Part shown: positions 3,217 through 55,967 of the stretch, piece by piece
Position numbering within the stretch: position 1 is the first letter of the stretch
Layout: the number at the start of each line of letters is the position of its first letter
Assembly (NCBI GenBank): GCA_945865605.1
Contig: CAMBEL010000010.1
Location: 1 to 57,781 of the forward strand
Source: Bifidobacterium breve
GTDB taxonomy: Bacteria > Actinomycetota > Acidimicrobiia > IMCC26256 > JAENVU01
Direction: 5' to 3'
DNA: 57,781 nucleotides
Made by a program: the position numbers and the translations under genes
The notes under the pieces: model-generated
The model's database searches: none
Told to the model about the DNA's origin: nothing
What the model saw: only the letters and a program-made list of their open reading frames with translations

Positions 3217-4002
3217 TTAGAGGTCTGGGAGTCCGAGGGCGAGGTTCGCTTCTTCTAGGCCGCCGTCTACTTCATAGATTTTGCCTGTCACATAACTAGA
3301 TGCTGATGACGCGAGATAGAGCGCACAGAGGGCGACGTCGTCGGCTTCTCCGAGGCGCTTGAGGGGCGTTCCTTCGATCATCTGATTGCGGATATCTTCG
3401 TTGTCCAACACCATGTCGAGCGCGCTTGTTGCGACAGACCCGACAGCGATTGCGTTCACGCGGATCTTGGGCGCGAGGTCTGCGGCCATGAGGCGGGTCA
3501 TGTGGCTGAGAGCGGCCTTCGCTGTGCCGTAGGCGATCATTCCGCGATCGCGCAGCCTCCCGATCGTGGAGGAGATGTTGACGATTGAACCGCTACCTTG
3601 CTCGAGCATCGTTGGTACCGCGGCCTTCGAGAGAACAAAGGCTGTCGTGGTATTGAAGTGGAACGCGCGTTCGAGGTAGCCGGGGCTGGTGTCGAGGAAT
3701 GGCCTTGGCATTGACCCACCCGCGTTGTTAATCACGATGTCGATGCGACCGAACTCGGCAACACATTGTGCGGCTAGATCGGTGACGGCATCGTTGTCTG
3801 TCACGTCGGTGGGAACGACGATTGCGCGAACGCCTAAAGAGCGTGCTTGTTCTGCCACCAATTCGAGTTGGTCTTGTGTGCGGGCGGCAAGCAAAACGTT
3901 GGACCCTGCCTCCGCTAGAACAAGTGCGCAGGCGGCACCGATTCCGCGGCCAGCTCCGGTGATAATTGCGGCATTGCCGTCACAGCGAAAGCGTTCAAGC
4001 AC
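3217..4002 (-). CDS. Short-chain dehydrogenase/reductase (SDR, classical)
   Basis: A classical SDR of about 261 residues, an NAD(P)-dependent oxidoreductase. Visible signatures: TGAGRGIGAA nucleotide-binding motif, NNAGG, catalytic Ser in NISSTIG, catalytic Tyr-Lys in YGTAK, and a C-terminal YVTGKIYEVDGG, all typical of the FabG-like group. The frame can be read back to 4074, but those extra codons run through the 4035-4095 palindrome and have no family equivalent. GTG at 4002 gives MLERFRCDGNAAIITG, matching usual SDR starts; TTG at 4011 is an alternative, with GGAAGG about 11 bases upstream. It lies downstream of an alcohol dehydrogenase on the same strand with the palindrome between them, so the two may act on the same alcohol/ketone. 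Confidence 0.88.
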   Translation of the reverse strand: MLERFRCDGNAAIITGAGRGIGAACALVLAEAGSNVLLAARTQDQLELVAEQARSLGVRAIVVPTDVTDNDAVTDLAAQCVAEFGRIDIVINNAGGSMPRPFLDTSPGYLERAFHFNTTTAFVLSKAAVPTMLEQGSGSIVNISSTIGRLRDRGMIAYGTAKAALSHMTRLMAADLAPKIRVNAIAVGSVATSALDMVLDNEDIRNQMIEGTPLKRLGEADDVALCALYLASSASSYVTGKIYEVDGGLEEANLALGLPDL

Positions 4003-4034
4003 ATCGGGCAACGTACACCACGCCTTCCAATACT

Positions 4035-4095
4035 CCTTCAACCGTTTGTCGGGTAGTGCACCGTTGCAGTGCATTATCCGACAAACGGTTGAAGG
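4035..4095. repeat. Long palindromic element, copy 1 (shared with 54842-54880)
   Basis: A perfect 18-bp inverted repeat: CCTTCAACCGTTTGTCGG at 4035-4052 and its exact complement at 4078-4095, with an inner dyad TGCAC/GTGCA (4057-4061 and 4069-4073). On the minus strand it starts 28 bases after the adh stop and could form a long 3'-UTR hairpin. There is no T-run, so it is not a standard intrinsic terminator. Its core matches a second element near 54.8 kb except for six extra bases at the centre. Confidence 0.9.
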
Positions 4096-4122
4096 GTTGG
4101 GCTGGCGTGTTGTGGTGTGGCA

Positions 4123-5160
4123 TTAGGGGACCACTACCGCTCTGCCTCTTACGCGCCCGGCTGCGAGGTCGTCGTATGCCTTGGCTGCGTCGGCTAACTC
4201 GTATCTCACTACTTCGGCGCGCACCTTCCCCGCTTCGGCGAGCGCAAGTACCTCTACGAGTTCTGGAAGTGAACCCCAATAGGTGGTGGCGAGAGAAACG
4301 CCGTATGGCGCCGTGAAGAAACCGAACGGGAATGAACCGCCACCGATACCGACGAGGGTGAGATGTCCGAGCGGACGGATGACTGCAGCTGCAAACGCGA
4401 GAGTGTCGTTCACGCCAACAATGTCGAGAACGAGTTCGGCGCCAACCCCGCGGGTCAACGAACGTATTTCCATTATTGCTTCGGGTCCCGGTGCGAATGC
4501 ATGCGCGGCACCTGCATCTAGCGCGTAACGGAGTGCATCAGGATTTGAATCGACGGCAATGATTCTTGTGGTAGTTAGGGCGTCAAGTAATTGAATTGCC
4601 ATGTGACCTAGACCGCCTGCGCCAATTACGACCGCCGTCGAGCCAGGGACGAGCAATGAGAGTGATCGTTTGATTGATGAGTAGGGAGTGAGGCCTGCGT
4701 CGGTCAGTGGTGCTGCGTCCACCGGGTTTAGATCGCTAAGGGGAACAAGTAGTCGGGCGCTAGGTACAAGTAGTAGCGGCGCCATACCGCCGTCCCTGCC
4801 AAGACCGCCTCCCGCATATGGGAGTTGCGCCTGGTTGGTGCAGTAGTTCTCTCGACCCTCGAGGCAGAGCTTGCAGGTGCCGCATCCCCATGGCCCGTAT
4901 ACGGCCACCGGCTGCCCTACCTCTAACCCGGTAACCCCTGCACCGAGCTCCTCGACCCAACCCGCATTCTCGTGACCAAGTGTGAACGGCAGTTTGAATG
5001 GCACTAGCGATTCGTCAAAGTCATGGATCAGGTGGAGGTCGGAGTGGCAGGCACCAGCGCCGCCGATTCGTATTAGTACCTCGCCGGGGGCCGGGGTGGG
5101 GTCATCGACCTCACGAAGGTCTGGTGGGTGTTTGAACTTCGTGAGTTGGAGTGCCTGCAT
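4123..5160 (-). CDS. Zinc-dependent alcohol dehydrogenase (MDR family)
   Basis: A 345-residue medium-chain NAD(P)-dependent dehydrogenase. GACHSDLHLI supplies the first catalytic zinc Cys, LGHENAGWVEELG the second ligand, and a structural-zinc lobe of the C-x2-C-x2-C-x7-C type is seen in WGCGTCKLCLEGRENYC. The Rossmann motif is VIGAGGLGHMAIQL. Length is exactly that of the family. The frame is open to 5376, but MQALQL at 5160 is the family start and the extra N-terminal residues are not conserved. It diverges from the SbcD-like gene across 129 bases and is followed on its own strand by an SDR gene. Likely substrate is a primary or secondary alcohol; not resolvable from sequence. Confidence 0.9.
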   Translation of the reverse strand: MQALQLTKFKHPPDLREVDDPTPAPGEVLIRIGGAGACHSDLHLIHDFDESLVPFKLPFTLGHENAGWVEELGAGVTGLEVGQPVAVYGPWGCGTCKLCLEGRENYCTNQAQLPYAGGGLGRDGGMAPLLLVPSARLLVPLSDLNPVDAAPLTDAGLTPYSSIKRSLSLLVPGSTAVVIGAGGLGHMAIQLLDALTTTRIIAVDSNPDALRYALDAGAAHAFAPGPEAIMEIRSLTRGVGAELVLDIVGVNDTLAFAAAVIRPLGHLTLVGIGGGSFPFGFFTAPYGVSLATTYWGSLPELVEVLALAEAGKVRAEVVRYELADAAKAYDDLAAGRVRGRAVVVP

Positions 5161-5289
5161 GGTAATTGTCCTGGTGGAGTGTTTGGTGGGGCTTACCTTG
5201 GCCCATCCGGACAGATCTCGCCAGCCGAGAACTATCCGTGCAGTGTTCATCCGCGTGATTGTCACACCCTCCCGGTACGGTCGGAGGCC

Positions 5290-6423
5290 ATGACCAGATT
5301 CATCCATACCGCCGACTGGCAACTCGGCATGACTCGGCACTTCCTTGATGGGGAGGCACAAGCCAGGTTCAGTCAAGCCCGCATCGACGTGATTGTCACG
5401 ATTGGGGCGCTAGCAGTTTCAGAGGGCTGTGCGTTTGTTGTCGTTTGCGGAGACGTGTTCGAGACCAATCAGGTAAATAGGCAGACCATTCTGCGCGCGC
5501 TGGAGGCGATGAAGAAGACGCCCGAAGTTACGTTCTATTTGTTGCCCGGTAATCACGACCCTCTAGACCCGTCGTCGGTTTTTCGTTCCCGTACTTTTAC
5601 TGACAACTGTCCCGCCCATGTTGTCGTGCTTGACACGCCTGGAACATTGCCGATCGCTGATGGTGTCGAACTAGTAGCTGCGCCATGGTTCAGCAAACGT
5701 CCCCTTACGGATCTAGTTGCAGAAGTAGTCCGAGAGTTGCCTGCAGATGGAACCGTGCGAATCGCTGTCGGACATGGTTGTGTAGACACGCTTTCGCCAG
5801 ACAAGGCGATCCCGGTTCTCGTTTCACTCGCGGTAGCGGAAGCAGCGATCGCTGAAGGCAGGGTGCATTACATCGCGCTCGGAGATCGGCATTCTCGGAC
5901 CGATGTGGGCAACACCGGGCGGATTTGGTACTCCGGTGCTCCTGAACCTACGGCCTATGTCGAGGATGACCCTGGCTTCGTTTTAGTCGTCGACGTCGAT
6001 GCTGATCACGTCGAAGTTGCCCAACGATCGACAGCGACGTGGAAGTTCGAAGAAGTTCAAGCCGACCTCGCATCACGCGCCGATATTGACGAACTGTTCA
6101 GACATCTAGATGACTTAGATGGGAAAGATCGCTCCATTGTCAAACTCGCGTTGGTGGGTCAACTGTCTCTTGCGGACAAGGCGTATTTCGACAACCTCCG
6201 AGGCGATAAGAAGCAGTTGTTCGCTGTGTTGGATGACTGGGAACGCCGTACCGACCTTGTAGTGGTACCAGACGAAGCCGACGTCGAATCACTTGGGTTA
6301 TCTGGGTTCGCCCGCGAGGCGTTCGAAGAGCTTGGCGAGATCGCCAAGAGCGATGGAGACGAGGTAGTGGTCGCAAGGGACGCGCTAGCCCTCTGCTACC
6401 GGCTCGCGGGCGGTGGGTCATGA
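5290..6423 (+). CDS. SbcD/Mre11-like metallophosphoesterase (DNA repair exonuclease)
   Basis: A 377-residue calcineurin-type phosphoesterase of the SbcD/Mre11/YhaO group. Metal motifs in order: HTADWQLG (D-x-H-like; here the residue after D is W-Q), CGDVFE, LPGNHD, GHGCVD and ALGDRHSR. These predict a two-metal nuclease acting with the partner ATPase on DNA ends or hairpins. The first motif reads DWQ rather than the usual DxH, a feature also seen in YhaO-like enzymes. The frame opens at 5128, but ATG 5290 directly before TRFIHTADWQLG is the family start and has GGAGG just upstream. Its stop overlaps the start of the SbcC-like gene by 4 bases (ATGA), so the two are cotranslated. Confidence 0.85.
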   Translation: MTRFIHTADWQLGMTRHFLDGEAQARFSQARIDVIVTIGALAVSEGCAFVVVCGDVFETNQVNRQTILRALEAMKKTPEVTFYLLPGNHDPLDPSSVFRSRTFTDNCPAHVVVLDTPGTLPIADGVELVAAPWFSKRPLTDLVAEVVRELPADGTVRIAVGHGCVDTLSPDKAIPVLVSLAVAEAAIAEGRVHYIALGDRHSRTDVGNTGRIWYSGAPEPTAYVEDDPGFVLVVDVDADHVEVAQRSTATWKFEEVQADLASRADIDELFRHLDDLDGKDRSIVKLALVGQLSLADKAYFDNLRGDKKQLFAVLDDWERRTDLVVVPDEADVESLGLSGFAREAFEELGEIAKSDGDEVVVARDALALCYRLAGGGS

Positions 6424-38438: not shown

Positions 38439-39422
38439 ATGGCTAGAACAACAATGTTGCGTCGCTACGCAACTGGCATCTTCGCACTCGGGCTGTTATT
38501 GGCGGCCTGCGGCGAAGACGTCACTTCTACCGGAGGCGACTCCTCGAATCTATCTGGTTCAATTTCGGTCGATGGATCTTCTACCGTCGGCCCTCTCACC
38601 GCCGCTGCGGCGGAGTTGTTTCAAGTAGACAACCCAGAGGTGAAGATCACCGTTGGTGTCTCGGGCACAGGCGGTGGATTCGTAAAGTTATGTTTGGGTG
38701 AGATCGACATGGAAGACGCATCGCGACCGATTAAGGAAGATGATGAAACAGAGGCGCCCGCTTGCAAAGCCAACGGAATCGCCTATGAAGAAATCCGGAT
38801 CGCGAATGATGGCATAGCACTTGTTACGAGTAAGGACAACAAGTGGGCTAAGTGCCTCACTACTGCTCAACTCAACAAGATTTGGGCTGCGGATTCCAAG
38901 GTCACGAACTGGAAACAGGTGGATTCCGCGTTCCCGGACGAGAAGCTCACTTTGTTCGGCGCTGGCACATCCTCTGGAACGTTCGACTTCTTCACGAAGG
39001 CCGTGAACGGCGAAGAAGGGTCGAGTCGCTCGGACTACAACGCGACCGAGGACGACAACGTAACGGTGCAAGGCGTATCTGGCGATAAAGGTGCGCTCGG
39101 ATACTTCGGGCTGTCCTACTACGAGGCGAACAAGGACAAGTTGAATGTCCTCGCAGTTAACGGCGGGGATGGGTGCGTGTCTCCGAGTACCACGACTGTT
39201 CAGAACGGCGACTACTCGCCGTTGTCGCGTCCGCTGTTTGTTTATCCGAGCGACGCGCTCTTAAACAGGCCAGAGGGCCTTGCCTTTGTCAAGTTTTACG
39301 TTAAGAACTCGGAAAACATCGCGTTGGAGACGCTTTTCGTGCCATTGACCGAGGCTCAATTGCAAACATCGCTAGCCGCAGTGCAGACGCTCGCAGCTAG
39401 CGGGACCACGACGAAGAGTTAG
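38439..39422 (+). CDS. pstS: Phosphate ABC transporter substrate-binding lipoprotein PstS
   Basis: A 327-residue phosphate-binding protein. The lipobox is LLLAACGED (Cys about residue 23). The mature protein has the phosphate-binding SVDGSSTVGPLTAAAAELF, VGVSGTGGGFVKLCLGEIDMEDASRPI and FGAGTSSGTFDFFTKAV motifs. The frame opens at 38286, but ATG 38439 has GGAGGT about 8 bases before it and precedes a normal lipoprotein signal. It is the first gene of pstSCAB-kinase-regulator, downstream of the PHO box. A strong hairpin lies just after it. Confidence 0.95.
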   Translation: MARTTMLRRYATGIFALGLLLAACGEDVTSTGGDSSNLSGSISVDGSSTVGPLTAAAAELFQVDNPEVKITVGVSGTGGGFVKLCLGEIDMEDASRPIKEDDETEAPACKANGIAYEEIRIANDGIALVTSKDNKWAKCLTTAQLNKIWAADSKVTNWKQVDSAFPDEKLTLFGAGTSSGTFDFFTKAVNGEEGSSRSDYNATEDDNVTVQGVSGDKGALGYFGLSYYEANKDKLNVLAVNGGDGCVSPSTTTVQNGDYSPLSRPLFVYPSDALLNRPEGLAFVKFYVKNSENIALETLFVPLTEAQLQTSLAAVQTLAASGTTTKS

Positions 39423-39450: not shown

Positions 39451-40389
39451 ATGCTCAGGATCCCCGGGTCATCCCCCAATGACCCGGGGATCCTGCGCGC
39501 ACGACGGCGTTATGGCGAGCGGGTAGTGATCGGTATTCTGTTCTGCTGTGCTGCGCTTTCTGTGGCCGTCACGGTCGGAATCGTTCTGTCATTGATTCCT
39601 CCCACTCTCGAGTTCTTCAGAGAGGTGGACATATTCGCGTTCTTGACAGGGACCGATTGGGCACCGCTATTTGTTCCGGCGAAGTTCGGAGTGTTGCCGA
39701 TAGTTATGGGCACGATCGTCGTTACGATCTGCGCGATTTCAGTGGCTGTGCCATTCGGTCTCGGTACGGCGATTTACTTGAGTGAGTATGCGCGTCCCCG
39801 TGTACGCAAGTTGCTCAAGCCGTTAATAGAATTATTGGCTGGTATCCCAACTGTTATCTATGGCTACTTCGCGCTGAAGTTCATCAGCCCGTTCGTCCAA
39901 AATCTATGGCCGGTCGGGGACTCGCCTGGTGTGTTCAATGCATTGTCTGCAGGTCTCGTTATGGGAATCATGATATTGCCGATGGTCGCGTCGCTGTCTG
40001 AGGACGCCTTGTCGGCGGTGCCCCATGGGCTACGTGAGGGCGCGTATGCACTCGGAAGTTCGAAGTTTGAAGTGTCGACTCGCGTAAGTGTGCCTGCTGC
40101 ACTATCGGGAATCGTCGCGGCTTTCGTACTTGCCGTCTCGCGTGCTGTCGGTGAAACCATGATCGTTCTGATCGCGGCGGGAGGCACACCGAACATGAGC
40201 TTGAACCCCGGCGAGGCGATGCAAACCATGACCGCGTTCATCGCGGCCGCGGGAACAGGAGACTTACCTCAGGGCAGCACCGGCTACAAAACCATCTTTG
40301 CTGTCGGGTCCCTTTTGTTTGTCGCCACGTTCATGATGAACGTGTTCAGCAATCGCATTGTGCTTAAGTACCGTGAGGTTTACGAGTGA
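39451..40389 (+). CDS. pstC: Phosphate ABC transporter permease PstC
   Basis: A permease of about 312 residues with six membrane helices. The binding-protein-dependent permease motif is EDALSAVPHGLREGAYALGSSKFEVSTRVSVPAALSGI (give or take the EAA loop), with LLAGIPTVIYGYFAL and SRAVGETMIVLIAAGG typical of PstC. The start is unclear: TTG 39430 is the longest, ATG 39451 is used here, and neither has a clear ribosome site. Whichever is used, the first codons run through the perfect inverted repeat at 39457-39494. The pstA start overlaps its stop by 4 bases. Confidence 0.92.
   Translation: MLRIPGSSPNDPGILRARRRYGERVVIGILFCCAALSVAVTVGIVLSLIPPTLEFFREVDIFAFLTGTDWAPLFVPAKFGVLPIVMGTIVVTICAISVAVPFGLGTAIYLSEYARPRVRKLLKPLIELLAGIPTVIYGYFALKFISPFVQNLWPVGDSPGVFNALSAGLVMGIMILPMVASLSEDALSAVPHGLREGAYALGSSKFEVSTRVSVPAALSGIVAAFVLAVSRAVGETMIVLIAAGGTPNMSLNPGEAMQTMTAFIAAAGTGDLPQGSTGYKTIFAVGSLLFVATFMMNVFSNRIVLKYREVYE
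39457..39494. repeat. Perfect 16-bp inverted repeat at the pstS/pstC junction
   Basis: AGGATCCCCGGGTCAT at 39457-39472 and its exact complement at 39479-39494 flank a six-base loop CCCCCA. The stem is G+C rich and begins 35 bases after the pstS stop. No T-run follows, so it is less likely a full terminator than an RNA-stability or attenuation hairpin that lets pstS be made in excess over pstCAB. Confidence 0.9.
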
Positions 40390-52466: not shown

Positions 52467-53754
52467 CGGTTCCTCCCCGGTTGTCCCCAAGCTCTGGGAG
52501 ATCGATTCGCGCAAGCCAAAGTCCCGGTGCGTCAATTTCGTTCGGCGTCGGCAACATTCTTTCGGATTTCCAAAGCCGGTTCAGGCCTTCGACATCGGCG
52601 CGTTCGATGACACCGCGCGCAAATTCCTGACCGCGTTCGTAATCTTCGCGTTTGAGGTGGAGACCGAGGAGACCCTCGACGAACCGCCCAGCTTCACCGT
52701 TTTCAACGCGATGTCGCTGCATCGCTTCATGGATTTGGGCAAAGTCGACAAGCAGGCGCGTACCGATCCGCTCAAGGAGCACGTCTACAAATCCCTCGAG
52801 AACCATCGTGAAGTTGTGGAGAGTACGCAACACGACCGTCTGTCGTTCCGAGCGCATCGCGCCCAACAGTGCATCAGGGCTCGCGGCGATTCCGGCAAGT
52901 GATGATGGGTCCGTTGGATCGATTGTCCCGAACTGTGCCTCGAAAGCCGCAGGATTTACTTCAAATGCACTTACATATTTGATTGCAAGTGAAATGAGAT
53001 GCTCACTTACCCACGTGATTGAACGGACGGACGCATGCAATGTTTCGTGAAGTGCTACATAGAAGCGAAGGTCGCGACGATCGAGCGACCATGCCGTTTC
53101 GAATTCAGCGAGGTTTGTTTCGACGAAAACCAAACTGGGCGAATCATCGGTCGGCAGTGGAAGGTCGTATCTTCCGAGCGCGTGTTGACCTAGGTGACCG
53201 ACCATCGAACCCGCCTGCACGCCGAGAAGTAAAGGGGCGAGCATCGGCATAATTCCTGCAAGTGGATCGACGCCGGGGGACATTCCGAAAGGATTAACGC
53301 CGCCCATCTCGAAAGGGTTCGTCCCGCCAGCCTCGTCGGGTGATCCACTATCGAGAGCGACCTGCATCGCTGACGCTAACGTTTCAAGCACGGGATGGAG
53401 CGCGTCCAAATGTAAGGCGGCCCACGCGCGCCGCCCAATGACGGCAACTCCCATCCCTAGCGGCGTATCGAGTCCCGCTTCCGAAGCGACGTATCCCTCG
53501 GCTGCTCTCGCGAGTTCGGTGAGTTCGGCGATGACACTGTCAGCGATCGGCGGTTCGTCTTGATCGCTGCCGAGGGATACGGCTGCGGCGACTTGGTGAG
53601 CGATCTCCCAATTGATTGGACCTGGAGATGAGATCCACCGCATCACTTGGCCGAGATCGAGCTGGTTGAAGTCGAATCCTGGAATCTGGGGGAACCCAAA
53701 CGGGTCGGATGGGTCCGGGTCCTCGGGTTCTCCGGTTGGAGGAATGTCTTTCAC
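52459..53754 (-). CDS. DUF2342-type zinc-dependent metalloprotease-like protein
   Basis: A 431-residue predicted cytosolic zincin of the actinobacterial DUF2342/TIGR03624 group. The H-E-x-x-H motif is ALHETLHASV (about residue 235), preceded by VFVETNLAEFETAWSLDRRDLRFYVALHE (in parts) and by a Gly/Met/Pro-rich stretch NPFEMGGVNPFGMSPGVDPLAG. The C-terminal half has a FVEGLLGLHLKREDYERGQEFARGV segment seen in this family. Members are often annotated near F420 biosynthesis genes, but their substrate is unknown. It is followed by the hydroxyacyl-CoA dehydrogenase with an 8-base overlap and diverges from the epimerase gene with about 20 bases between starts. Confidence 0.85.
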   Translation of the reverse strand: MKDIPPTGEPEDPDPSDPFGFPQIPGFDFNQLDLGQVMRWISSPGPINWEIAHQVAAAVSLGSDQDEPPIADSVIAELTELARAAEGYVASEAGLDTPLGMGVAVIGRRAWAALHLDALHPVLETLASAMQVALDSGSPDEAGGTNPFEMGGVNPFGMSPGVDPLAGIMPMLAPLLLGVQAGSMVGHLGQHALGRYDLPLPTDDSPSLVFVETNLAEFETAWSLDRRDLRFYVALHETLHASVRSITWVSEHLISLAIKYVSAFEVNPAAFEAQFGTIDPTDPSSLAGIAASPDALLGAMRSERQTVVLRTLHNFTMVLEGFVDVLLERIGTRLLVDFAQIHEAMQRHRVENGEAGRFVEGLLGLHLKREDYERGQEFARGVIERADVEGLNRLWKSERMLPTPNEIDAPGLWLARIDLPELGDNRGGTDG

Positions 53755-53775
53755 GCGGTCAGTCTATGGATCCCC

Positions 53776-54828
53776 ATGGCAGATCTCGTCGTCGCAGTAA
53801 CAGGAGCCGCTGGTTTCGTAGGGCAGCGCTTTGTCTCAAAGCTTGCTACCCATCCCGAAATTGCGCGCGTCGTTGGACTCGATGTGCGGGAGCCAACGGT
53901 GAGAGCGGAGTCATGCGACTACCACAGGGTTGACATCGCTAGCCGAGATCTGAGGTCGCTCTTCGACGGCGTCGATGTTGTCGTGCATCTGGCGGGATTT
54001 GTAGACGCGATTACCGACGACGCGCTTATGGCCAGTGTGAATGTCGATGGCACGCGCCGGGTCTTAGATGCAGTAGCGGTAGCAGGCGTTGGGAAGTTGA
54101 TTCGCGTATCCACCACGACCGTCTATGGCGCATGGGAAACGAATTCGGTGCCACTCACCGAAGACGCGCAGCTGCGGCCAAATAGTGGGTATGCACCCGC
54201 AGTGCAGTCGGCAGAAGTCGAACGGGTCCTCCAAGAATGGCAACAGCAATACCCAGAAGTAGTGGTGACGACTTTGCGTTCCGCACCTGTACTCGGGCCG
54301 GGTGCCGAACACCTGTGGGCGCGGCTCTTGAGTTACCCCACGCGCGTTCGAGTGAGCGGAGAAGTCGCGCCTGTTCAGGTCGTTCATGTCGATGACCTTG
54401 TCAGCGCGCTCGAACTTGTAGTGGGTAAGGATGCATGGGGAGTTTTCAACGTTGCCACGGACGGTTGGCTGTCGCGAGAGGTAGTCGATGCGTTGGTTCC
54501 GATGCCGACAATGCCGCGGTTGCCCGTCGGCGTGTTGAGGCGCGCGCTGGATCGAATGTGGGGGACCGGAATGGGCGACGTCCCTCCGGATGTGGTCCCG
54601 TACCTAATTCATCCGTGGGTAGTCGCTAACGACCGAATGAGAGCGCTCGGATGGCAACCGATGCACAGTACCGAAACGACGATCCTCGACACAGTCGATG
54701 CGCGGCCACCGAGCAATGCTCCGTCGTTGCGAACGGTCATGTTCAGTTTTGGTGCCGCTTCTGTAGCGGTAGCAGTCGGCGTGATGTACCGAACTATGCG
54801 CCGTCGGCTTGCCAACCGCAACCACTAA
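53776..54828 (+). CDS. NAD-dependent epimerase/dehydratase (extended SDR) with C-terminal membrane helix
   Basis: A 350-residue extended SDR from ATG 53776 (MADLVVAVTGAAGFVGQ); the frame open at 53647 overlaps the zincin gene. The cofactor motif is TGAAGFVG, then VVHLAGFVDAI and ISTTTVYGAWE-type (RVSTTTVYGAWE) segments. The catalytic Y-x3-K appears as YAPAV, so the usual Lys is absent; activity as a standard epimerase is doubtful. The C-terminus SFGAASVAVAVGVMYRTMRRR is a single hydrophobic helix with a basic end, suggesting membrane attachment. A copy of the palindromic element starts 13 bases after the stop. Confidence 0.83.
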   Translation: MADLVVAVTGAAGFVGQRFVSKLATHPEIARVVGLDVREPTVRAESCDYHRVDIASRDLRSLFDGVDVVVHLAGFVDAITDDALMASVNVDGTRRVLDAVAVAGVGKLIRVSTTTVYGAWETNSVPLTEDAQLRPNSGYAPAVQSAEVERVLQEWQQQYPEVVVTTLRSAPVLGPGAEHLWARLLSYPTRVRVSGEVAPVQVVHVDDLVSALELVVGKDAWGVFNVATDGWLSREVVDALVPMPTMPRLPVGVLRRALDRMWGTGMGDVPPDVVPYLIHPWVVANDRMRALGWQPMHSTETTILDTVDARPPSNAPSLRTVMFSFGAASVAVAVGVMYRTMRRRLANRNH

Positions 54829-54841
54829 CCAACCACCCGAG

Positions 54842-54880
54842 CGTTTGTCGGAGAATGCACGGTGCGCTACGCGACAAACG
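54842..54880. repeat. Palindromic element, copy 2
   Basis: CGTTTGTCG at 54842-54850 and CGACAAACG at 54872-54880 flank an inner dyad GCAC/GTGC. Read on the plus strand it matches the minus strand of the 4035-4095 element base for base (CGTTTGTCGGAxAATGCAC, then GGTGCxCTACxCGACAAACG with three substitutions) apart from six bases missing at the centre. As at copy 1, it lies just downstream of a stop codon in the same orientation. Confidence 0.9.
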
Positions 54881-54887
54881 GCGATGT

Positions 54888-55967
54888 TTAGGGGGTGAGG
54901 TGTTCCTTGCTCCACTCGTCCCAGTCTGGCGAGAAGTAACGCAGTCGGACCTTCTTGTATTCCTTGATCGACCAAAGCAATGCGTAATCCGCAACGCCCG
55001 TCTCGCTACTAATCGCGTCAATCGTTGCTTCACAATCGCGTGCTGTCCGGCCGTGGACCATTGTGAAAACTGTGTACGGCCAGTCGTCGTATGTAGGGCG
55101 TCGGTAGCAATGTGAGACTGCAGCAAACGCTGCCATCTGAGGGCCAATTTCTACGAGGGCGTCCTCAGGAACTGCCCATACCCCCATCGCGTTCGCTTTG
55201 AACCCCGCGTTGCGATGGTTCATGACAGCCGCAAAACGTCGCATGAGTTTGCGATCCTTAAGGTCTCGCAATGTTTCTAGGAACTCCGCAGCCGTGCAAC
55301 CAGCTTCTGCACCTAATACGGCGAAGGGTTCTTCGACGAGTTCGAGGTCACCTTGCGCGACTCGGATCACGGTTGCATCGCGAACACTGAGATCAGGTGC
55401 CGGCATATCGGTGCGCCGCTCAGGACGTTCGTGCTCTAACACCTCGGCCTTTGCGTTGGCCGCGGTCTTGCCTGTCATGTCGAGTTTCACACCAATTTTG
55501 TACAACTGGATTGTCGGTAGCTTGCGAGTAACGAGGGCTTCTGACTCGCGATGTAATGCATCTAGATGAGCGTCGAAATCTTCACCAGGTGGGACCGCCA
55601 ACGTGTACCAGAGGTTGTAAGCATGGTTGCGTTTGTAGTTGTGGCTTACGCCAGGATGTTGGCTGACCGCAGCCGCCGCGTCGTCAACTCGGTCGGGATC
55701 GATTTTCGCCGCTATGAGCGCCGATGAATAGCCGAGAGCGCGCGTGTCGAAGATTGCAGAGAGTTGTCGAAGTACCCCTTGGTCCTTCGCGCGTTGTAGG
55801 CGTTCTCGTACGTCGGTTTCGTCTGTACCGATTCGTGTCGCTAGAACAGCGAATGGCCGTTCCTCGAGCGGGAAGTCCCATTGGATCGCATTGAGCAACT
55901 CGCGATCGGTGTCAGAGAATTCCTCTACGACGTTATTTTCTGATGCATCTTGAGTGGCCGAGTCCAT
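54888..55967 (-). CDS. Siroheme decarboxylase-like protein, AhbA/AhbB (NirDL-type) fusion
   Basis: A 359-residue protein with two Lrp/AsnC-like halves. The first (about 18-165) has DRELLNAIQWDFPLEERPFAVLA, QLSAIFDTRALGYSSALIAAKI and HPGVSHNYKRNHAYNLWYTLAVP; the second (about 195-345) has EEPFAVLGAEAGCTAAEF, MRRFAAVMNHRNAGFKANAMGVW and AVSHCYRRPTYDDWPYTVFTMVHGR. These are the signatures of AhbA/AhbB and NirDL, which decarboxylate siroheme to didecarboxysiroheme for alternative heme or heme d1 synthesis. They can be mistaken for AsnC regulators. No nir or ahb genes are nearby in this window, so the pathway context is unknown. Confidence 0.8.
   Translation of the reverse strand: MDSATQDASENNVVEEFSDTDRELLNAIQWDFPLEERPFAVLATRIGTDETDVRERLQRAKDQGVLRQLSAIFDTRALGYSSALIAAKIDPDRVDDAAAAVSQHPGVSHNYKRNHAYNLWYTLAVPPGEDFDAHLDALHRESEALVTRKLPTIQLYKIGVKLDMTGKTAANAKAEVLEHERPERRTDMPAPDLSVRDATVIRVAQGDLELVEEPFAVLGAEAGCTAAEFLETLRDLKDRKLMRRFAAVMNHRNAGFKANAMGVWAVPEDALVEIGPQMAAFAAVSHCYRRPTYDDWPYTVFTMVHGRTARDCEATIDAISSETGVADYALLWSIKEYKKVRLRYFSPDWDEWSKEHLTP

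Follow-up and report, generated by a model that had tools for sequence, protein, structure and literature searches.

The window, a 57,781-nt stretch of DNA analysed over its whole length, carries two related palindromes, each located a short distance behind the stop codon of a gene. The genes and repeat features at the two sites are as follows.

3217..4074, minus strand: SDR dehydrogenase gene, downstream of copy 1 (Pfam adh_short_C2; from the list of open reading frames)
4035..4095, minus strand: copy 1 of the palindrome, with the A half first along the ADH transcript and extended perfect outer arms
4043..4087, minus strand: 45-bp core of copy 1, CGTTTGTCG-N27-CGACAAACG, an exact match to the family-wide pattern
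4096..4122, minus strand: C-rich and G-poor flank separating the core of copy 1 from the ADH stop, typical of the family in composition (25 elements)
4123..5376, minus strand: zinc-type alcohol dehydrogenase (ADH) gene, upstream of copy 1 (Pfam ADH_N, ADH_zinc_N)
53647..54828, plus strand: NAD-dependent epimerase gene, upstream of copy 2 (Pfam Epimerase)
54829..54841, plus strand: C-rich flank of copy 2, CCAACCACCCGAG, assigned from its sequence and the family flank
54842..54880, plus strand: copy 2, a shortened 39-bp core, with the A half first along the epimerase transcript
54888..55967, minus strand: gene for an AsnC-like/NirDL-like HTH protein, convergent, its stop facing copy 2 (Pfam AsnC_trans_reg2, NirdL-like_HTH)

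Both palindromes described in the original prediction are real. Copy 1 ranks first in strength among the short-range inverted repeats in the window; its 27-nt arms (4035-4061 and 4069-4095) are 93% complementary, with the outer 18 bp perfect, and copy 2 is a shorter relative of 39 bp. The prediction was also right in placing both close behind stops (27 nt from the ADH stop to copy 1 and 13 nt from the epimerase stop at 54828 to copy 2), in an identical strand sense relative to the preceding gene and with no T-run; 7 nt separate copy 2 from the end of the convergent gene. Two matches to the pattern GTTTGTCG-N10..38-CGACAAAC lie in the window, and 100 shuffles gave none. A covariance model, R1, which was built from 19 repeat copies and whose E-values are rough, matches copy 1 at G000:C10:4036-4093 (minus, E 7.7e-19) and copy 2 at G000:C10:54836-54887 (plus, E 1.4e-16), where G000 is the window's own genome. 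A 6-nt insertion had been proposed for copy 1; the family norm of 45 bp indicates that copy 2 has lost 6 nt instead. The first ATG of the SDR reading frame (4074) falls within copy 1, so translation of that gene probably begins at a codon downstream of the listed start. The scan for intrinsic terminators found none at either window copy, where neither a T-run nor a U-tract is present, and an intrinsic terminator was rejected for that reason. The product of the convergent gene at 54888-55967 is a single chain with doubled AsnC-like and NirDL-like HTH domains and is siroheme decarboxylase-like. At 39453-39498, about 30 nt past the stop of a gene ending at 39422, the window has another strong hairpin, with a 6-nt loop and 20-nt arms that are 95% complementary; its sequence is unrelated to the repeat family.

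The compared genomes are incomplete MAGs. In G000 (2.15 Mb, 115 contigs, 86% complete) a strict pattern was found at 8 places and its reversed control at none, R1 detected 27 places at E<=1e-6, and the addition of pattern matches brings the number to about 36, partial copies included. G001, a congener, has 23 places, two of which are perhaps one locus divided between contig ends. No convincing copy was seen in G002, also of this genus (best R1 E 0.5; none among the relaxed-pattern matches listed). A pattern in which only the 9-bp arms were fixed and the spacer was free from 13 to 42 bp was searched in 58 genomes of the order; the copies it found numbered 20 in G004 and 12 in G005, which represent another genus of G000's family, and one in G006, while 53 of the 58 genomes had no match. 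When two mismatches were allowed and a control pattern was counted alongside, there were at least 21 matches in G000, 22 in G001, 28 in G004 and 30 in G005. The matches listed numbered 2-3 for G003 and G006 and no more than 2 in any other genome, and in those others the control pattern gave 0-3. Among the genomes searched the repeat is confined to one Acidimicrobiia family, as the counts outside it do not exceed those of the control pattern. In a half-site scan of genome contigs, several contigs were matched only in the MAG Baikal-deep-G23 (Acidimicrobiia, Lake Baikal), and the remainder were single scattered matches. The genus-type pattern had no match in viral contigs, and a phage origin was rejected on this basis. 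Among the matches listed, G004 has element doublets exactly 72 bp apart (C363 583-699 and C181 7472-7588), which resemble small BIME clusters.

The family core is 45 bp, CGTTTG(T/G)CG-N27-CG(A/C)CAAACG, bordered by C-rich and G-rich flanks with which the unit measures about 80 bp. Each half-element, from outside to inside, consists of a C-rich stretch (approximately CCCC AA CCC YC GAG), the CGTTTG(T/G)CG arm and a genus-specific inner part; a C-rich flank is no general property of gene ends in the window. The spacer between the arms is exactly 27 bp in nearly all copies across genera, and its sequence varies between genera and copies (mean pairwise identity of 0.47 in G004 and 0.53 in G005). 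Arm identity in G004 and G005 is inflated by the search rule, which does not account for the copy counts. In the window's genus the two halves are not identical, the A half being approximately CGTTTGTCG-SAKAATGCAC and the B half approximately CGTTTGTCG-TGTAGCGCAC; their pairing involves the arms and a second stretch close to the centre, and an internal loop separates the two paired regions.

The compensating symmetry of the arms had been read as implying selection for an RNA hairpin or a dimeric protein site; as proof of an RNA hairpin it is not sustained by the copies in G000, 19 of which showed pairing no better than column shuffles; likewise, halves in the window's genus pair no better than shuffled halves. 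Pairing of the inner stem was weakly above shuffles in G004 (p about 0.04) and clearly above within-genome shuffles in G005 (105 vs 87 +/- 4.8, 0/2000, with kinship of the copies uncontrolled). A pooled signal mixes genera and was left out of the hairpin test. Selection for a hairpin is thus plausible, with support from G005 only. The RNA fold of copy 2 comprises 9 bp, a 5x5 loop, 4 bp and a 3-nt loop and is no more stable than its shuffles (z -0.9), whereas that of copy 1 is very stable (z about -11). Cores shortened to 39-40 bp were found in window copy 2, at G000:C39:16305 and at G001:C15:7991, and because their arms remain intact, a hairpin with a shrinkable terminal loop fits better than a duplex site of fixed phase. 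A known RNA family was rejected since Rfam gave no match above the curated score, the bare hairpin returning only sub-threshold miRNA matches.

The distance from stop codon to core is mostly 2-50 nt, with a median of about 25 nt. According to gene calls from a home-made and crude hexamer caller, convergent gaps account for 22 of 52 typed sites, compared with 17 of 193 other neighbouring pairs, and the share is about 15 of 40 when orthologues are merged by hand. By hand count, about 8 of 9 tandem sites close to a stop have the A half in front, and tRNA genes (Pro, Tyr, Leu) also precede copies. The family anticipated by the original prediction therefore exists, in this genome and in relatives, and its sites are not random inside genes; the dispersed copies and their preferred sense agree with the REP-like part of that proposal, whereas its other part, a non-canonical terminator, is not established, given that there is no U-tract. 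One copy (L111 2959-3016) lies in frame midway in a 614-aa membrane-protein-like reading frame, to which it adds about 20 residues, in G000 and G001 alike.

At three orthologous sites, one of two close species has the element and the other lacks it; about 80-85 bp just behind the stop codon make up the difference. There is no clear target-site duplication at these three pairs, the boundaries of which are blurred by divergence. G002, G003 and G004 have no element in the gap orthologous to that of copy 2, and almost no space is left between the convergent genes in G002. At the site of copy 1, the ADH-SDR gap of G003 has a diverged 45-bp palindrome, CGTTTGGCG...CGACGAACG. Comparison of 11 orthologous sites of G000 and G001 revealed changes in 5.1% of arm positions, 13.8% of inner positions and 13.0% of the 15-nt flanks (p about 0.001-0.003), a comparison somewhat biased by the use of the model to find the partners in G001. 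Since the arms changed less than the inner part and the flanks, we conclude from these alignments that the arms are kept after insertion. One half appears to have switched between A and B type at two sites (G000:C11:45586/G001:C58 and G000:C15:17607/G001:C19), which suggests templated conversion between arms. Sites are filled or empty in close species, and a second element has inserted into the palindrome (described below); both findings point, first of all, to a repeat that turns over.

We favour, at somewhat better than even confidence, the explanation that both palindromes represent a dispersed, non-coding repeat of REP-like type, about 80 bp long, that is spread in trans by an enzyme and probably also serves as a 3'-end hairpin. 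The reasons are the size of the family, its restriction to one taxonomic family, the stop-proximal and convergent placement, gain and loss in units of about 80 bp, the conserved arms, inner-stem pairing in G005, shortened cores with intact arms, and a location like that of published REPs (PMC3733652). Single-stranded copies would fold into a 9-bp stem, an unpaired internal loop, an inner stem and a small loop. An enzyme acting in trans would recognise this hairpin via its arms and copy or move it into the tolerated space behind genes. Once in a 3' UTR, often one common to two convergent genes, the hairpin may end transcripts or protect 3' ends, and such a role would help to keep the arms intact. 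Counted against this explanation are the missing transposase, the lack of a clear target-site duplication, the copy in frame inside a gene, covariation that is absent in the window's genus and weak in G004, and the absence of a U-tract.

REP elements, REPINs and BIMEs are likewise short, dispersed, intergenic palindromes near 3' ends and in convergent gaps, with an unpaired-middle hairpin and occasional doublets (PMC3733652, PMC2817692). Unlike the GTAG and CGTC REPs, the repeat described here has no conserved end tag outside the stem; a GTAG within the B half is peculiar to the window's genus and is missing in G005 among the matches listed. The core is longer than that of REPs (45 bp, or about 80 with flanks), the arm sequence is conserved across genera, and the copy number is about 27-36 rather than the more than 100 typical of REPs. 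In contrast to GTAG REPs, no RAYT was found: Y1_Tnp/RAYT (PF01797) was detected in none of the five genomes G000-G004, which are incomplete, and the control genomes were positive. A RAYT/Y1 transposase as the mover in G000-G004 was rejected accordingly. The family works like a REP but, because neither the end tag nor the RAYT gene was found, is not filed as a GTAG or CGTC REP. The best reading is a new tag-less, RAYT-less REP-like family. Untagged REP-like families have been recorded in other bacteria, CGTC repeats are known without a transposase, and Acidimicrobiia go unmentioned in the 2013 REP catalogue (PMC3733652). A search of the literature gave nothing on point for actinobacterial REP/RAYT, for 13E12 palindromes or for DUF222 mobility. 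With this repeat an actinobacterial class has a REP-like family that falls outside the two tagged superfamilies and lacks the transposase that explains GTAG REPs, a gap shared by the published untagged and CGTC families (PMC3733652). Its copies would also map sites relevant to the 3'-end biology of uncultured Acidimicrobiia.

One could envision a purely regulatory alternative, in which the palindromes would be bidirectional U-less terminators or RNA hairpins protecting 3' ends, maintained by selection and spread by ordinary duplication. A terminator, however, needs neither a fixed 45-bp core nor a common 9-bp arm sequence, most convergent gaps in the window are without a copy, and copies are gained and lost as units of about 80 bp. 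We think this alternative rather unlikely, even though it would account for positions 2-50 nt behind stops, in convergent gaps and behind tRNA genes, for arms conserved in place and for the diverged palindrome in the ADH-SDR gap of G003. The folds divide, that of copy 1 speaking for this explanation and that of copy 2 against it, as does the missing T-run.

Some G000 copies at contig ends adjoin a multi-copy gene encoding DUF222 plus HNH. This unit has recently multiplied in G000 (at least 96% identity), where it breaks contigs (L117 1-529, L134, L126, L115, L127, L136, L138, L277); the G001 copy of the subfamily is 90% identical. By MITE criteria the unit is the sole candidate parent element. 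At its 3' junctions a palindrome, in some cases incomplete, was present in 7 of 7 read, about 45-60 nt past the DUF222-HNH stop in the clearest cases and farther or partial in C17, C60 and C66. A palindrome also stands at the 5' junctions on C84, C53, C115 and C30 and is missing at C57 (two) and C8. The palindrome at G001:C15:7329 is intact, and its G000 flanks are found on C104 and C115, each running from palindrome into HNH unit; the one at G001:C179, between tRNA-Pro and tRNA-Gly, is intact versus G000 C17 and C30, likewise split by the unit. At these two sites, then, the unit was inserted into the palindrome and both junctions were recovered. The ends of the unit resemble B halves, so that the palindrome is re-formed at each junction.

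One interpretation of these junctions is that the palindromes are terminal parts of a mobile element encoding the DUF222-HNH nuclease, or what is left of it as solo copies, and that this nuclease moves them. We consider this quite unlikely: G004 and G005 are equally element-rich, yet their DUF222 genes are unflanked except for one in G004, on one side; the other DUF222 subfamilies of G000 are unflanked as well, three 5' junctions lack a palindrome, and G002 has 9 DUF222 matches and no element among the matches listed. Among the other DUF222 genes in seven genomes, the only such flank was one 5' palindrome, in G004:C449, and DUF222 genes as a general partner were rejected because other subfamilies and genera are unflanked. 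The unit more closely resembles a guest for which palindromes serve as landing sites, and we read its junctions in this sense. The REP13E12, or 13E12, repeat family of mycobacteria consists of DUF222-HNH genes; the unit shares with it multi-copy DUF222 and HNH genes and an SOS-like box in the promoter, in our case CGAACAAATGTTCG, which resembles the actinobacterial SOS box. To our knowledge, palindromic repeats have not been reported as landing sites of 13E12. It is highly doubtful that DUF222-HNH proteins of the 13E12 type are the repeat's mobilisers, that is, SOS-induced nucleases that would act on hairpins, place their own gene into the hairpin centre and disperse solo palindromes; were this so, they would be a non-HUH counterpart of the RAYT-REP system. 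As in RAYT/REPtron units, a nuclease gene is flanked by family palindromes in inverted order, but the gene encodes DUF222 plus HNH instead of a Y1 HUH transposase, and the flanking is limited to a single recent subfamily within one genus. REP-targeting insertion sequences, such as ISPpu9 in P. putida (PMC8450116), are similarly multi-copy gene units seated within palindromic repeats; unlike them, the HNH unit has no IS transposase, and its central insertion re-forms the palindrome on each side. Having filled and empty sites in close species and a nuclease unit in the palindrome makes the mover of tag-less palindromes directly testable.

That the palindromes are duplex DNA sites for a two-fold symmetric chromosomal protein, such as a nucleoid or domain organiser, is very unlikely, for although two half-sites with a common motif and a fixed 27-bp spacer, and the missing covariation in two of three genera, would suit such a site, cores shorter by 5-6 bp keep perfect arms where the half-sites would turn by about half a helix turn, and the pairing signal of the G005 inner stem and the gain and loss of the whole unit of about 80 bp also argue against it. 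An integron attC was rejected because the arms, GTTTGTC ... GACAAAC, have the opposite order to RYYYAAC ... GTTRRRY and the copies are dispersed singly. A DNA uptake sequence was rejected as well, CGTTTGTCGG with one mismatch occurring 10 times in the window against 7.1 expected.

Two observations concern individual elements. The element in G004:C449 (877-921; L174) lies about 140 nt upstream of the DUF222-HNH gene, and its inner sequence is unlike that of other G004 copies. On G000:C60, C73 and C12 (L139, L137, L132), truncated palindromes lead into a second shared sequence, approximately GGTGAGTTAAAGGGGTGGTCGCAACGTTTGGTGAAC.
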